Source of the DNA: Candidatus Gastranaerophilales bacterium
GTDB taxonomy: Bacteria; Cyanobacteriota; Vampirovibrionia; Gastranaerophilales; Gastranaerophilaceae
DNA: 64,000 bases
Direction of reading: 5' to 3'
NCBI GenBank assembly: GCA_944325575.1
Contig: CALVAR010000007.1
Span: 1 to 64,000, forward strand
Shown here: positions 14,345 through 22,439 of the stretch, one piece after another
Numbering within the stretch: the stretch's first letter is position 1
Layout of the letters: each line of letters begins with the position of its first letter
Made by a program: the position numbers and the translations under genes
The notes under the pieces: generated by a model
What the model was told of the DNA's origin: nothing
The model's input: the letters and a program-made list of their open reading frames with translations, nothing else
Database searches by the model: none

Positions 14345-15469
14345 ATGGTTACTGTATCAAACATCACTAACAATAAGCTGAATATTCCTGTCAATTCAAG
14401 CTCTTTACCTTCACCATCGACAGAAAAATCTTACGTAAATCAAAACTTTCATGCCGGAGACAATTCGCACAATGTTGTTGATAACAGGAAGTATAAAAAG
14501 GATAAGATTCTTCCGAATACATTTATGAATCGTATGCGGATAAATTTAAGCAAGACGCTTGATATCCCCCTGGTTCATTTCCCGAGAGGTCTTGCCGGAG
14601 CTCCTGATTATACATTTTATGAGTTTTTACAGACTGCAAAATTCCCTTATTATCTCGGTGGTCCTATACTTGCAGCATTATTTTATGCCGGTGTAAAAAA
14701 AGACAACTTTAAATCAGCAAGAGCTGCTCAGGGTGTTGCAAAACACATGGCTCTTGGTGTTGGTTTATATTATCTGGGTGCTGCTTTTGCAAAATCCTTG
14801 ATTAACCATACCGTTAAATTCACCAGAGGAATAGATTTAAGACATCCGTATGCAAAAGCAATATCAACATCTACAAGCCATACAGGCGATTTTAAAAAGG
14901 ATGTCGAATACCATACATTATATGAAAGCAGCGAGTTTACAAGAACGGATTTGATGTACGAACATGATGTAGAGAAGTCCCAGATTGATACAGATAAAAT
15001 CGCACGTAAATACGGAGTAAAAGGGGATGTAAATGATGCGGATCAAACCGTAAAACCATTAATCAAAAAGACCATAATTATGGCAAGAGCATGGCAGTAT
15101 GCGCTTACAGCCTTCTTTGTTACTCTGGGTATCGGTATGGCAAACCAGAAAGCTTGGGATAAAATGTCATCTGAAGGTTTTAAAAAGACAATTTCCAAGG
15201 GTATATTCGGCAGAAATGTCTCTTTAAAAAATCGTTTGCATAATGCCAAACTTGTTGTTAATGATTATATGCTAAAACCTTTCGGACAGAGCTTTAAACA
15301 GTTCTGGCACGGACACAGCAAAGCATCTTCTATTGTTGGCAAGTCTGTTATCTTATCTACGGCAGCAGCTACTTTGCTTGCAATGTCTCTTATCACGGCA
15401 AAAACATCAGCAAATAGTCATAAAATCGAATCATCAGGTGCAAACAGACAAAATGAGGTAAATAAATAA
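14345..15469 (+). CDS. Unrecognised multi-span membrane protein, first gene of the GH13 operon
   Basis: A 374-residue protein with a polar, disordered start of ~70 residues (Asn/Ser/Pro-rich) and no cleavable signal. Four hydrophobic segments are visible: ~98-118, ~135-155, ~245-265 and ~340-362. The polar part in between is rich in Lys, Asp and His. A site AAGGGAAATT precedes the ATG. The stop overlaps the next gene as TAATG (15467-15471), and the next two junctions are built the same way, so the three proteins are made in step. I recognise no family; it may belong to lineage-specific membrane proteins of this organism. Confidence 0.75.
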   Translation: MVTVSNITNNKLNIPVNSSSLPSPSTEKSYVNQNFHAGDNSHNVVDNRKYKKDKILPNTFMNRMRINLSKTLDIPLVHFPRGLAGAPDYTFYEFLQTAKFPYYLGGPILAALFYAGVKKDNFKSARAAQGVAKHMALGVGLYYLGAAFAKSLINHTVKFTRGIDLRHPYAKAISTSTSHTGDFKKDVEYHTLYESSEFTRTDLMYEHDVEKSQIDTDKIARKYGVKGDVNDADQTVKPLIKKTIIMARAWQYALTAFFVTLGIGMANQKAWDKMSSEGFKKTISKGIFGRNVSLKNRLHNAKLVVNDYMLKPFGQSFKQFWHGHSKASSIVGKSVILSTAAATLLAMSLITAKTSANSHKIESSGANRQNEVNK

Positions 15470-18400
15470 TGGGAAATTTAATACAAAATATACCTGTTAA
15501 TAGACCTCAGCAGACAACGGTTGTAAGACCGGCGTCGCAGCCTGTTTTTACTCCTAATGCAAATCCTTTGTTAAACGAAATTCAAAACCGGTATCCGCAG
15601 GATAAAATATATTCATATATTCTTGCCGAGCCTATCAGCCCCGCAAGAACAACACCTGCAGGTGTCAGTGCAAGACAAGCCTCCGGTGAATTGATTAAAG
15701 AAAATATTTTCCAATCAATGTCAAGAACCGTAAAATCATACGGTGATTATGCAAAATATTTTTATAATGCTGCATTTAAGGGAGAAGGCAAGGATTATTC
15801 CGTAGGTAAAATCAATGATCTTACGCTGAGAGCAGGCTCTTTGGGTATTGCTACTGTTCTTGCAACTTCAAAAATGTTCCCGTTTGCAAAAGGTATGGAA
15901 TTTGTCGGACTTGCTACATGGTTTGCGTCTATGGCTATTTGGCCCAAAGTTCTCGGTATGCCGATTAAAGCTATTTACGGAGTTGATATCAACCAGAAAT
16001 ACAAAGATTCCGACGGCAGGATAAAAGATGTGTTCGAAGACAATCAATACCGTCCGATGGACATATACAGGTATGTTGACAAAAACGGCAAACCTTTAAC
16101 AAAAGAACAGTATCAGGCAAAATATGACCATGATTATGTTTATCTTGAAAAGATAGGTGATAAGCTCGGCATAGAAAAAGGTATAAAAGACAGAAATGAA
16201 GCCACCATGAATAAGATGGGGCAGGTCGCCGTACAGGGCAAAACACTCTGGATGCTGACTGCAGGAGTTATGACACCTGTGCTTTCTTCGCTTGCTGCCG
16301 ATGCACTGCAAAATCCTCTTAAGAATCTGATTGAAACAAGCAGATACCAGAGACAAACAGAAGATTTGAAAAAATTTGAACAAACTATTGAAGCTCTGCT
16401 TGGAGACCAAAATCATTCCAGAGTTACCGACATTGATAAATTGTATGAAAATCTGGGCATAAAAATTCCCGAAAAAACACAACAACAATTTGAGTCTTTG
16501 ATTACGGAAAACGGTAAACTCACTCCTGAACAATTTAAAAAACTTAATAAGTTCCTTGAAAAAAGATTTTACGGAAGCGGTTTTTATACATCTATAGAAG
16601 CTGCCATGAAAAAAGATGCAAGGATGACAGAGCCGTTTGTTACTGTAAATCAGGAATTTAAACAGCAGCTTGTCAGCATAGTAAAAGAATCCTTTAATGA
16701 AGTCGTTTCAGCGCTTCCGGAAGATAAAAAAGCACTGCTGCCGGAAAAAATAAGAAATTATGAAGGTTTAAAACTTAAGGATATTGATAATCTGTTTAAA
16801 GAAATTTGTCTGGATGGTATATCTGATTTGGATAAATTACAACAAAAAGAACTGAAAATAAATCTGTCCACTGCGGCTATTATGACTGTAAATGAAGAAA
16901 AACAGGGCAATAATCTTGCAAAAGCAGCCGTAGACAGAGCAAGACAGCTTATCAATACTAAATTGGATGCTATATATGAATCAAAAAGACATTATATCGT
17001 CTCTAAAAACCAGATAGAAAAAATCTTTAAATTTGCGGAAATGAACCGTCAGATAAGAGGCAGATTAAACCTTTTTGAAAGAGCTACAATCAAAAATATT
17101 GCGGAATCAGCTACTGCAATTTCTTGGGAAACGCTTCCTCAAAAATACGTAAAAGCTATCGGCTTCACAAATAAAGAGTTAGCCGTACTTGCCACTGTTG
17201 ATTCAGCTAAAGCAACAAGGGTTATTGCTGAAAAATTTGAAAATATTGTAAAAAATCCTGAAAAATATAAACAAGTACTGCAGGCAATGTCTGAATATGC
17301 CAAAGGCGCTATTTCAAAAGAAGAAAAAGCCGTAATTCAGCTTATAGGTACCATCGAGAATCCCGGACTTTTGTTTAAAGTTAAAGAATTAATGGAATCC
17401 TCTGCACGTGCAAATTTTGGCGGATATTTCCAGGATACAATAACAACTTACTATTTGCGTAAGATATCCGCAGTACAGCGTAAATTGAGAAATACTATAG
17501 ATTCATTTGTCCGTCCGATAAAGGCTCTTGATGTATTCAAAAATCTTAGTAATCTGGCTGAAAGAATAGTAGGAGACACAGGTACTTTCAATTTCCGCCG
17601 CGAACACGACTGGCACTATCAAATGTTTGAAAAGATGGATGCTGCAAAAGCAAGAGCTGCTATGGGCAGATATCTGAAAGATATAGTTTTGACCAGAAAT
17701 GACGTTAACAATTGGACAACTAAAATGGAGGCTGAACTGCCTCTGGGAACAAGAGGTTTTAAAAACTCATTCCCTGTATTGTGCAGTATTGCAGAGCAGG
17801 TTTTTGGCGAACTGCATCCTGAAACCGTTGCAATAATAACAGGCGATAACATGGACAAAATCGCTGAAAACAAAGCTTTAATACGTAAAATCAATGTAAA
17901 TAACTGGATTATGAAATCAAGATTCTTACGTATTGATTATAAACTTTCAGAACGCGGCGATAAAAATTATATGAGACAAGACAACGCTCTTGGCGGTTTT
18001 ATAGAAGACTTAAAAAATCGTTCCAAAGTACAAGAAGCGTCCAGATTCCTTTCAGAAGTTCTTGAAGACAGAATCGCTGATCTCGGAGAAAATATTGCGG
18101 ACGGCACACAAAGATTTACTTTTGAAAAATTAAAAAATTACAAAAAATTGTTGCGTGACTTTGCATCGGGTAGAGCATTTGAGGCAGGCTATAATATGAA
18201 TGGCGCTATTAATTGTCTTAAAGAAGCAAGCTGTTTTGGATTTTTAACTGCTAATAAAGCAGTGGCAGAGGCTTCCGGTAAAAATGTCACGGAATTTTTG
18301 GCTTCTGCAGCTCAGAACGTACGTTCAAGAAATAAATGGTTGAAACTTGTCTACGGTCTTTTAACCGGTACGGTGGCGGTATCTGCTTATACAATAGCAA

Positions 18401-18471
18401 TGATGGGAAAAAACAATAATCTTAATAAAGAGATAACAAATAATCAATCATCACAAGGAGCGTTGAAATAA
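15469..18471 (+). CDS. Unrecognised 1000-residue membrane-associated protein
   Basis: The longest protein in the window. It starts with a disordered Pro/Gln-rich segment of ~60 residues (including TTPAGVSARQ) and has hydrophobic stretches at ~123-165 and ~260-285. A long, charged, mainly helical body (~300-950) follows, and a single hydrophobic segment lies close to the C-terminus (~963-985), followed by an Asn-rich tail. The layout suggests a large helical domain held at the membrane at both ends. No enzyme motif was found. It is coupled by TAATG overlaps to the genes before and after, which puts it in one functional unit with the GH13 enzyme. Confidence 0.75.
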   Translation: MGNLIQNIPVNRPQQTTVVRPASQPVFTPNANPLLNEIQNRYPQDKIYSYILAEPISPARTTPAGVSARQASGELIKENIFQSMSRTVKSYGDYAKYFYNAAFKGEGKDYSVGKINDLTLRAGSLGIATVLATSKMFPFAKGMEFVGLATWFASMAIWPKVLGMPIKAIYGVDINQKYKDSDGRIKDVFEDNQYRPMDIYRYVDKNGKPLTKEQYQAKYDHDYVYLEKIGDKLGIEKGIKDRNEATMNKMGQVAVQGKTLWMLTAGVMTPVLSSLAADALQNPLKNLIETSRYQRQTEDLKKFEQTIEALLGDQNHSRVTDIDKLYENLGIKIPEKTQQQFESLITENGKLTPEQFKKLNKFLEKRFYGSGFYTSIEAAMKKDARMTEPFVTVNQEFKQQLVSIVKESFNEVVSALPEDKKALLPEKIRNYEGLKLKDIDNLFKEICLDGISDLDKLQQKELKINLSTAAIMTVNEEKQGNNLAKAAVDRARQLINTKLDAIYESKRHYIVSKNQIEKIFKFAEMNRQIRGRLNLFERATIKNIAESATAISWETLPQKYVKAIGFTNKELAVLATVDSAKATRVIAEKFENIVKNPEKYKQVLQAMSEYAKGAISKEEKAVIQLIGTIENPGLLFKVKELMESSARANFGGYFQDTITTYYLRKISAVQRKLRNTIDSFVRPIKALDVFKNLSNLAERIVGDTGTFNFRREHDWHYQMFEKMDAAKARAAMGRYLKDIVLTRNDVNNWTTKMEAELPLGTRGFKNSFPVLCSIAEQVFGELHPETVAIITGDNMDKIAENKALIRKINVNNWIMKSRFLRIDYKLSERGDKNYMRQDNALGGFIEDLKNRSKVQEASRFLSEVLEDRIADLGENIADGTQRFTFEKLKNYKKLLRDFASGRAFEAGYNMNGAINCLKEASCFGFLTANKAVAEASGKNVTEFLASAAQNVRSRNKWLKLVYGLLTGTVAVSAYTIAMMGKNNNLNKEITNNQSSQGALK

Positions 18472-20699
18472 TGAAAATTAACGGCGGTTCATATTATGCA
18501 GCACCAATAAAACCTAATTTTAAGGCATCTTTGCTCACACAAATGATGCAAAATTATGGTACACAAAATGCTGTTGCCGTACAAAATACAAAATCGCCCG
18601 TGAATGCGGCTTATCTTCCCGTTTCTACACCTTCAGCAGACAATTACAACCGCACATATGCTCAGGGCAGCCTTATGACGCTTCTGCTTAATAAAACACA
18701 GGGTAAAAATATTCCCGCACCTGCAGGTGTTTCTACAGAAAGTGTTTCACAACCGCTGCATTATAAAAACAATTTGCGTTCAATGTTCCAAAACAATCAG
18801 GCAGTTATTTATGCAATGATTCCGAGAACTTTTAATGCAAAAGATACCAATGGCAACGGACTGATTGATAAAAATGAAGAGCCCGGATATTTTACAAATA
18901 TGGTAGAAAGGCTTGATGAACTAAAAACATATGGAATTAATACACTGCACTGGCTGCCTATAAACCCTCCGGGACAATTGGCGGCAAAAGGCAGTGCCGG
19001 TTCTGTATATGCACCGATGGATTATCTTTCCATAGATCCGAAGCTTGATGACCCAAGAAACCCGAAATCCGTCTATGAAGAAGCAAAAGATGCCATAAAC
19101 GAATGCCACAAAAGAGGCATTAAGGTTATGGTAGATTTGCCAAGCTGTATGTCTGTTGATCTTTATGAAAGCCGTCCTGATTTGAGAGCTACGGATGCCG
19201 AAGGCAAACCCAAAACTCCTGAAGGATGGGAAGATATAAGAATGTTTAATCCTTGGGAAGACAAGGATAAAAAAATACTGAATAAAGCTTTATTTGATTA
19301 TCATAAAAAATTTATAGATATGTGTATTGACCTTGGTATAGACGGAATCAGAGCCGATGTAGGAAGAGCAAAACCGCCGGAATTCTGGGATCATCTGATT
19401 TCTTATGCAAGAAGCAAAGACCCTGAATTTGCATTTCTTGCCGAATGTTATACTTATGAAGACGCTTCTCCTATGAAGAACATGCCTGCTGACCGTCCGG
19501 AAGAAGCTTTAGAATCCGGTTTTGATTCATATTACGGACAGTACCATATTTTCCATATGTGGAAAGCAAAAGATTTCCATAAATTTATTGAAGACAATTT
19601 AGACATGTCATACAGACACAATAAAGGAAAATCTTTAATCGGTTCTTTTGCCACTCACGATGACCACAGCCCAATGTCTAACGGAGGACCGGACTATTGC
19701 ATGATGACCAATGTTATTCAAACAACCGTTCCTATGACAAATCCGTATATTGTAACGGGCTATGAATCCGGTGACAGATATATTTATGAATACGGCAGCA
19801 AATATGTTAATAAAACATTTAATGAATTATTGGAAAATGCATCTTACCAGAGAACTGTGGATTGCATTTTAAATTCCGTAGATTTCAAGAAAAATCTTTT
19901 GCAACTGCTAAATACAACTAAACCTGTATCACAGCTAAAACAGGATAATAAATACGGAAACAATATCAACTTCTTGCTCTCATTCTCGAACAAAATTTCC
20001 GAATATATAGAACAAAATCCTGATGCAACGTTCCAGCAGTTATATTCACAATCCGAATTCCAAAATATATTCGGATACATAGACAGTATTGCATCAAAAA
20101 ATTTCAACATAAAACAGTTAATGGATTCTCCTCAGGCAAGAAATATGACTGTTGAACAGCTTGCTGCTGATCCTAAATTTAAAGATGTAATAGAATTTTT
20201 CAAAGAATATAAACTGACAAAAGACAATATAACCTATTATACAAGCCCTGAACATGTTGATATCTTCAACGAAGCGGCAAAACCGGGCGGTGAGCATCCT
20301 GAAATAGGTCAGCATTTCGGCTATTTGATGAATTGTGTAAGACCGCGCTACGGTGAACTTATTACAAAAGGAAGCTACATAGAGCTCAAAGTCGACAACA
20401 ATAACCGTGATGAAGTTATTGCTTATGCAAGATGCAAAGACGGCAAGACACTTGTTACTATTGCAAATCACGATGTAAATGCAAGACAAAAGGTTAAAGT
20501 CAACATACCGGGGCTTAAATCAACACAAAAACTCGAAGATTTGTCTCCTAAATACGGAACAGGAAGCACTTGGAAAGCTAAGAACAATGCTATAGAAATT
20601 GATCTTGGTCCTGCGCAGGCACATATCTTTGAGGTTGATGTACCTGATTTGGAAGCAAGAATGCAAAATTCCGGTAAAGAATTCTACCAGAATTTGTAA
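18471..20699 (+). CDS. GH13-family alpha-glucan enzyme, atypical
   Basis: A 742-residue enzyme of the alpha-amylase (GH13) barrel family. After a ~100-residue polar N-terminus without signal peptide comes the barrel. Region II is GIDGIRADVG (nucleophile Asp296), region III FLAECYT (acid Glu325) and region IV FATHDDHS (His396-Asp397). Region I is unusual: VMVDLPSCMS has no Asn-His after the Asp. With RPDLRATDAEG and the WDHLI...FLAE spacing, this looks more like GlgE (GH13_3, maltosyltransferase) than amylase, which is an inference. A canonical EF-hand type loop DTNGNGLIDKNE (125-136) is inserted before the first barrel helix. The C-terminal ~120 residues form an all-beta domain. It probably acts on glucan in the cytoplasm, possibly at the membrane with its two operon partners. 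Confidence 0.85.
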   Translation: MKINGGSYYAAPIKPNFKASLLTQMMQNYGTQNAVAVQNTKSPVNAAYLPVSTPSADNYNRTYAQGSLMTLLLNKTQGKNIPAPAGVSTESVSQPLHYKNNLRSMFQNNQAVIYAMIPRTFNAKDTNGNGLIDKNEEPGYFTNMVERLDELKTYGINTLHWLPINPPGQLAAKGSAGSVYAPMDYLSIDPKLDDPRNPKSVYEEAKDAINECHKRGIKVMVDLPSCMSVDLYESRPDLRATDAEGKPKTPEGWEDIRMFNPWEDKDKKILNKALFDYHKKFIDMCIDLGIDGIRADVGRAKPPEFWDHLISYARSKDPEFAFLAECYTYEDASPMKNMPADRPEEALESGFDSYYGQYHIFHMWKAKDFHKFIEDNLDMSYRHNKGKSLIGSFATHDDHSPMSNGGPDYCMMTNVIQTTVPMTNPYIVTGYESGDRYIYEYGSKYVNKTFNELLENASYQRTVDCILNSVDFKKNLLQLLNTTKPVSQLKQDNKYGNNINFLLSFSNKISEYIEQNPDATFQQLYSQSEFQNIFGYIDSIASKNFNIKQLMDSPQARNMTVEQLAADPKFKDVIEFFKEYKLTKDNITYYTSPEHVDIFNEAAKPGGEHPEIGQHFGYLMNCVRPRYGELITKGSYIELKVDNNNRDEVIAYARCKDGKTLVTIANHDVNARQKVKVNIPGLKSTQKLEDLSPKYGTGSTWKAKNNAIEIDLGPAQAHIFEVDVPDLEARMQNSGKEFYQNL

Positions 20700-21449: not shown

Positions 21450-22439
21450 ATGAGTGAAATTAGTTTAGGACAATTTATAAAAAATGTATTTGACTACAGT
21501 ACCGGTAAGATGCCTGCGCAGCAGCCCGGTAAAGTAGCCAATGAAAATTTTCAGCGTGCACAGAATGAAGCTATGAAAATGGTGCAGCAAACTGCCCAGA
21601 ATATTGCCAATAATATGGCAAGACAGCAGGATATCCTTAATACACAGATGATGCTGAAACAGCTTACCAATACGGAGCAGTCATGGCTTATGAAGCACAT
21701 GTTTGATTTTCCCGAAAATTTGACACAGCTTTTGGAGCAGATTGTAACTCAAGGAAAGACTGTAAGCTCTAAAGAACTTGCATCTTTAATGACAAAAGAG
21801 CTTGATCTGTCAAAAATACTTGTTTTGCTGCAAACAAACGGCAAGGCTGCTCTTGAAAAACTCTCTAAAATGATTGCAACTATGAATCAATCAGGAATAT
21901 ATAACACCCAGCAGCTAAAAGAAATGTCTGTACTGATAAATGCCTGTATTCCGGCAAATGATGCTTCGCAGGCACAGATACTAAAGAGCCTTATGGTTAT
22001 GTATCTGCCCTGGCTGCCTTTGAATGAAAGTGTAGGGTTCAATTTTGGAGCTGATTCTGCAGCAGAAGGGCAAAAAAGTGCCGGAGAGGACACAATTACT
22101 ATTATCATAACCACAAAGAACTACGGTATTGTAAAAATTCTTCTCTATAATAATGAACAGGGCTATTCTATGGATGTGAACTGTTCGGATACTTTTCCGA
22201 AAGAAAGATTCAATGAAGCTGTCAAAGTTGAAAATGCGCTGCACCTGTCAGAAAATCCTTCTTATACGGTAAGAAAAAACGCCGGTGATACAGAAGAAAA
22301 TAAAGAAATGAAGGTGGAATTTTCGAAATCCGCCAAAGTTTCTCCTCAGCTTTTAATTATTGTGCATGCAATCATCAGAATAATTACGGAATTGGACAAT
22401 ACCGGTTCTCTTGAGAAAAAAAGGAAAGAAGATGTCTGA
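21450..22439 (+). CDS. Unrecognised protein with a possible Flg_hook-like C-terminal domain
   Basis: A 329-residue soluble protein. The N-terminal ~190 residues are helical and rich in Gln, Met and Leu (QRAQNEAMKMVQQTAQNIAN). Then comes a beta segment TITIIITTKNYGIVKILLYN followed by GYSMDVNCSDTF and a helix, resembling the strand order of FliK-type Flg_hook domains. In some Firmicutes a FliK-like protein of this size (YlqG) precedes a small FlhB-like protein (YlqH). Here a good site (AAAGGAAAGAAG) and an overlapping ATG sit at the 3' end, but the following frame stops after 25 codons inside the compositional island. The function proposal is an inference. Confidence 0.6.
   Translation: MSEISLGQFIKNVFDYSTGKMPAQQPGKVANENFQRAQNEAMKMVQQTAQNIANNMARQQDILNTQMMLKQLTNTEQSWLMKHMFDFPENLTQLLEQIVTQGKTVSSKELASLMTKELDLSKILVLLQTNGKAALEKLSKMIATMNQSGIYNTQQLKEMSVLINACIPANDASQAQILKSLMVMYLPWLPLNESVGFNFGADSAAEGQKSAGEDTITIIITTKNYGIVKILLYNNEQGYSMDVNCSDTFPKERFNEAVKVENALHLSENPSYTVRKNAGDTEENKEMKVEFSKSAKVSPQLLIIVHAIIRIITELDNTGSLEKKRKEDV

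Follow-up and report, generated by a model that had tools for sequence, protein, structure and literature searches.

The carbohydrate metabolism of the Gastranaerophilales, which are gut bacteria, is to our knowledge known from genomes only. The Melainabacteria have been described as fermenters for which the use of starch and glycogen is predicted (PMC3787301). Most GH13 enzymes close region I with NH and carry NHD in region IV, and in the subfamilies GH13_48 and GH13_49 taken together 81% have a Cys directly before the nucleophile (PMC11239784). The GlgE pathway is intracellular and works with GlgB (PMC11046441). Here we describe a GH13 enzyme, C, whose profile has the maltosyltransferase of Thermotoga maritima as its best PDB match (1gju/1gjw, E about 2.1e-24) and which is encoded together with two membrane proteins, A and B. 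No description of the A-B-C operon was found in a literature search. The operon lies in a window of 64,000 nucleotides (positions 1 to 64,000 of contig CALVAR010000007.1) from a Gastranaerophilales genome of 2.0 Mb, it occurs in most genomes of the class that were sampled, and two of its three proteins belong to a membrane family for which no relatives were found here.

Layout of the locus and identity of enzyme C

The operon and its features are listed below by window position, strand and basis.

14345..15469, + strand: gene A, 374-residue membrane protein with four hydrophobic segments, residues 1-43 disordered (ORF, hydropathy)
14624..14686, + strand: A hydrophobic segment 1, residues 94-114 (family-averaged hydropathy)
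14744..14806, + strand: A hydrophobic segment 2, residues 134-154 (family-averaged hydropathy)
15086..15148, + strand: A hydrophobic segment 3, residues 248-268 (family-averaged hydropathy)
15341..15403, + strand: A hydrophobic segment 4, residues 333-353 (family-averaged hydropathy)
15467..15471, + strand: TAATG, stop of A and start of B, 1-nt overlap (sequence)
15469..18471, + strand: gene B, 1000-residue membrane protein, a paralog of A that carries a large helical insert (ORF, profile comparison)
15808..15870, + strand: B hydrophobic segment 1, residues 114-134 (family-averaged hydropathy)
15898..15960, + strand: B hydrophobic segment 2, residues 144-164 (family-averaged hydropathy)
16240..16302, + strand: B hydrophobic segment 3, residues 258-278 (family-averaged hydropathy)
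16402..18282, + strand: B helical region separating segments 3 and 4, residues ~312-938 (AlphaFold model)
18346..18408, + strand: B hydrophobic segment 4, residues 960-980, followed by the fused C in relatives belonging to family f9 (hydropathy)
18469..18473, + strand: TAATG, stop of B and start of C, 1-nt overlap (sequence)
18471..20699, + strand: gene C, 742-residue GH13 enzyme whose first ~95 residues form a polar leader (ORF, profile match)
19134..19154, + strand: C region I motif DLPSCMS, residues 222-228 (alignment)
19356..19358, + strand: C catalytic nucleophile Asp296 in GH13 region II, GIRADV (alignment)
19443..19445, + strand: C acid/base Glu325 in GH13 region III, FLAE (alignment)
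19659..19661, + strand: C transition-state Asp397 in GH13 region IV, SFATHD (alignment)

The sequence-only reading had counted three tight TAATG junctions; the overlaps are tight as claimed, but three genes have two junctions. It had also singled out PAGVS as a conserved segment shared by B and C. This string occurs once in each of the two window proteins; none of 69 C homologs has it and 1 of 71 B homologs does, and as a shared functional segment it was therefore dismissed as a chance occurrence without conservation. On the 3′ side of C, at window positions 21450-22439 (+), lies a gene for a protein of 329 residues without a family match, whose homologs accompany the operon in the closest relatives only.

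That C is a GH13 enzyme is borne out both by the catalytic D/E/D and by the catalytic-domain profile. D296, E325 and D397 are invariant in 20 C homologs, and are also found in two further families of the same class (f9 and f15) and in a C paralog with a Sec-type N-terminus. The profile PF00128 scores 19 bits on C alone, just under the 22-bit cut-off, which is passed by the window locus with neighbouring stretches (22.7 bits) and by C of f9 (35.2 bits). Region I reads DLPSCxS with PSC invariant in all members compared, and region IV ends in THD. SLC3 proteins are GH13-fold partners of eukaryotic amino-acid transporters. A role of C as a similar non-catalytic scaffold or binding protein would fit these deviations in regions I and IV from the usual NH and NHD (PMC11239784); we hold it to be very improbable, because the Asp/Glu/Asp triad is invariant in the family and conservation of C peaks around the active site.

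The T. maritima maltosyltransferase is likewise off NH in region I (DFIPRTAARDSDL versus DLPSCMSVDLYE in the alignment). It is matched over parts of the barrel only, and C differs from it in the invariant PSC, in a helical stretch inserted after region IV in the window's genus and in its coupling to two membrane proteins. The next best matches were GH13_48 (T. neapolitana maltogenic amylase AmyB, 4gkl, 1.6e-21) and GH13_49 (Haloarcula MalA, NF041321), with C reaching 39.9 bits against the NCBIfam MalA cut-off of 875. Where GH13_48 ends region I with NH, all C members compared have PSC, and the residue directly before the nucleophile is not the Cys of these subfamilies but Ala in the window and most homologs, with Cys in one f15 member and Val in one of f9. 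GlgE, also a GH13 enzyme, is a detectable relative of C (3zss, 2.8e-13) through a partial match of ~190 residues, weaker than the matches to maltosyltransferase and maltogenic amylase. Since the closest solved relatives are these two enzymes and, more weakly, GlgE, transfer or release of maltosyl-type units is the most likely activity predicted for C. A role in anti-phage defence was discarded, as PADLOC returned for the locus only a weak GlgB-like match, on the GH13 domain.

The family of membrane proteins A and B

The original description of A and B as two large unrecognised membrane-linked proteins of 374 and 1000 residues agrees with the four hydrophobic segments in each and with profile searches that gave no known family. 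No match was found in Pfam, NCBIfam or PHROGs or, by sequence search, in the PDB, and Foldseek comparison of the models with the PDB gave none at E ≤0.001. The kinship of A and B had been missed. Alignment of the A family to the B core with hhalign (probability 98.6, E 1.4e-15, 178 columns) rules out that they are unrelated, and the B profile alone detects A in f9 and f15 with E-values from 5e-9 to 6e-14. The centres of the hydrophobic segments, taken from family-averaged hydropathy, correspond as well (residues 104, 144, 258 and 343 in A; 124, 154, 268 and 970 in B). On these comparisons A and B are identified as diverged paralogs. B differs from A mainly by an insert of ~650 residues, mostly helical, that lies between segments 3 and 4. 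In f9 and f15 this insert is much shorter, and unfused B there has ~500-625 residues.

The hydropathy peaks of both proteins are modest (family mean 1.0-1.8), and some of the segments may therefore not cross the membrane. The AlphaFold model of A was of moderate quality (pLDDT 75.6, pTM 0.70) and that of B was better (pLDDT 84.9, pTM 0.74), the confidently modelled parts of both being helical. VIA-align Z-scores for A were ≤7.2, in the range of common helical arrangements, and the matches were mixed and all middling. Nothing alike was found among described membrane protein families; in these searches A and B showed kinship with each other only, and in the samples searched their family was confined to this class of the phylum. 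One A homolog of ~631 residues, much over the usual length, was seen on a short contig that has neither B nor C (G063:C23, L127).

Conservation of the operon, the B-C fusion and protein D

A and B were each found in 74 of 99 relatives, in an identical set of genomes, and C in 83, a count raised partly by its paralog; most of these genomes come from one order, so the co-occurrence counts are not independent. Of 63 complete loci, 61 had an A-B gap of ≤20 nt and 55 a B-C gap within the same limit, which is far from chance. When public genomes were scanned with the B core, 270 relatives were obtained, from which 79 loci were kept, labelled as Gastranaerophilales or Melainabacteria together with unclassified and a few otherwise-labelled MAGs. 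The order A-B-C was present in nearly every complete locus of these 79, and C was broken or not recovered in two loci (L179 and L226). The B core occurred in 289 of 382 genomes of the class sample, and in the phylum sample none of the matches listed lay outside the class. In f9 and f15, A again precedes B and C again follows it. The check proposed by the sequence-only reading, whether the three genes stay together in related genomes, thus came out in its favour: they are together wherever the locus is complete, and separation was not seen. The operon is real, old within the class and functionally coherent.

In three f9 relatives, B and C form a single polypeptide (G083, 1030 residues; G093, 1082 residues; one G105 copy, 986 residues), in which a short linker joins the last hydrophobic segment of B to the GH13 domain and the usual C leader is absent. 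C proteins outside this fusion clade start with a long polar leader and carry no anchor themselves. The three fusions form one clade with support of 99/97, so that one fusion event suffices. The fusion offers the strongest evidence that B and C would work in contact. Its confinement to one clade would also suit a locus in which A, B and C are merely co-expressed without forming a complex, the fusion being a local event, as would the presence in the same genome of a stand-alone paralog, which C has and A and B do not. This we consider unlikely, given that order and tight junctions are kept across deeply diverged families and that neither A without B nor B without A was met in the 99 relatives.

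A fourth linked member, which had escaped the earlier reading, is the giant GH13 protein D. It was detected in 68 of the 99 genomes, every one a carrier of A-B, and in 0 of the 25 without A-B. Its gene follows C in basal families and is adjacent in many genomes. D of the window genome has 1296 residues with GH13 catalytic motifs (WRIDA 816, IGELTD 865, SNHDKP 941) and is encoded on a separate contig (L233:829-4716 (-), C3:829-4716). In f9 the gene for D is oriented divergently from A-B-C, and beside it stands one for a GPH_sucrose-type MFS protein matching sucrose/proton symporters (TIGR01301, 1e-42, below cut-off). The D of f9 is homologous to that of the Gastranaerophilales (hhalign E 1.8e-74), and its catalytic motifs were not located by pattern search. 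The neighbourhood of D and a sucrose/maltose-type symporter favours a role in alpha-glucan uptake and processing.

The reading we prefer, with a probability of about 0.55, is that A and B provide a platform that holds a maltosyltransferase/maltogenic-type GH13 enzyme, C, at the membrane, where it works with D on maltodextrins. The paralogous four-segment proteins would pair physically and jointly form this platform; the platform would keep C, an atypical GH13 enzyme with a full catalytic triad, at the membrane, by non-covalent recruitment wherever C is a separate protein. C would most likely transfer or release maltosyl-type units from maltodextrins, working with D and in some lineages with a sucrose/maltose-type symporter, and the whole set would make up an alpha-glucan processing and uptake module. 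The membrane-held glucan-enzyme complex suggested at the outset thereby gains support as an inference from the order kept in complete loci and from the fusion of B and C in three relatives. If it is true, these bacteria process starch-derived sugars with a GH13 assembly held at the membrane, which sets them apart from other gut bacteria and the glycan systems described there; the naturally fused B-C protein allows a direct test.

Besides the modest hydropathy peaks, the separate C without an anchor and the dependence among the co-occurrence counts, a point against this platform is that the neighbours of the operon vary by lineage. In the window's genus it is divergent from FlgE/FliK/FliJ-like genes, whereas in many Gastranaerophilaceae genera genes that we read from their sequences as kdsD-, kdsC-, QueD- and uppP-like lie directly 5′ of A on the same strand (L184-L226). 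A flagellar link through the upstream genes was rejected as a general feature, since these are confined to the window's genus and its close kin and other genera have other neighbours. The position after kdsD/kdsC/uppP-like surface-glycan genes in most Gastranaerophilaceae genera would suit a module that builds alpha-glucan, with a GlgE-like C extending it intracellularly from maltose-1-phosphate and A and B exporting or anchoring a surface glucan. The GlgE structures among the solved relatives of C and the widespread glycogen synthase of the order (over cut-off in 74 of 99 genomes) are in line with this, and the export route of GlgE-made glucan is not known in mycobacteria (PMC11046441). Such a synthetic role nevertheless appears improbable, its share of our confidence being small, since the GlgE matches rank below those to maltosyltransferase and maltogenic amylase and the f9 neighbour is an uptake-type sugar symporter. 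Canonical GlgB, the partner in the described GlgE pathway, does not exceed the cut-off in any genome of the order. The idea that C replaces this missing branching enzyme of glycogen is not favoured, because genomes without A-B-C retain glycogen synthase and GH57 proteins are present in nearly all genomes, a family that includes branching enzymes in the account cited (PMC6629080).

Leaders, the C paralog and the side of the membrane

A short F-x-G/A motif was seen in the N-terminal leaders, polar and disordered, that A, C and D homologs carry (window positions 14345-14480 in A and 18471-18560 in C). It is present in 36 of 71 A leaders against 11.8 expected and in 27 of 69 C leaders against 7.0 expected, B is not enriched, and in D leaders it was read by eye. 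The motif also occurs weakly in some unrelated proteins of the genome. As a genome-wide tag it was rejected: among the polar leaders of one genome enrichment was weak, with 7 seen against 2.3 expected in one bin of four.

The part of the sequence-only reading that made C cytoplasmic, as opposed to its GH13 assignment, was not supported. C as a separate protein has no evident signal peptide, but the N-terminus of its paralog in the window genome, read by eye, appears as a Sec signal peptide, and the charges flanking the last segment of B point outside. In f9 and f15 these average +3.6 before the segment and +1.7 after it. By the positive-inside rule the fused enzyme would therefore lie outside, and the other segment flanks in the Gastranaerophilales alignments mostly agree, with segment 3 against. 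Taken together, the charges and the paralog give a weak lean towards C working outside the membrane. A more specific proposal, which we regard as doubtful and less probable than the alternatives of synthesis or mere co-expression, is that A and B are a lineage-specific machine that places GH13 enzymes without a classical signal peptide outside the cytoplasm by recognising the F-x-G/A leader; in the f9 fusion clade C is joined to B, and this leader would be replaced.

The paralog itself has 530 residues, shares the PSC motif and is encoded at L121:6274-7863 (-), contig C4:76273-77862. It lies near a gene that reads as a sugar-binding protein.
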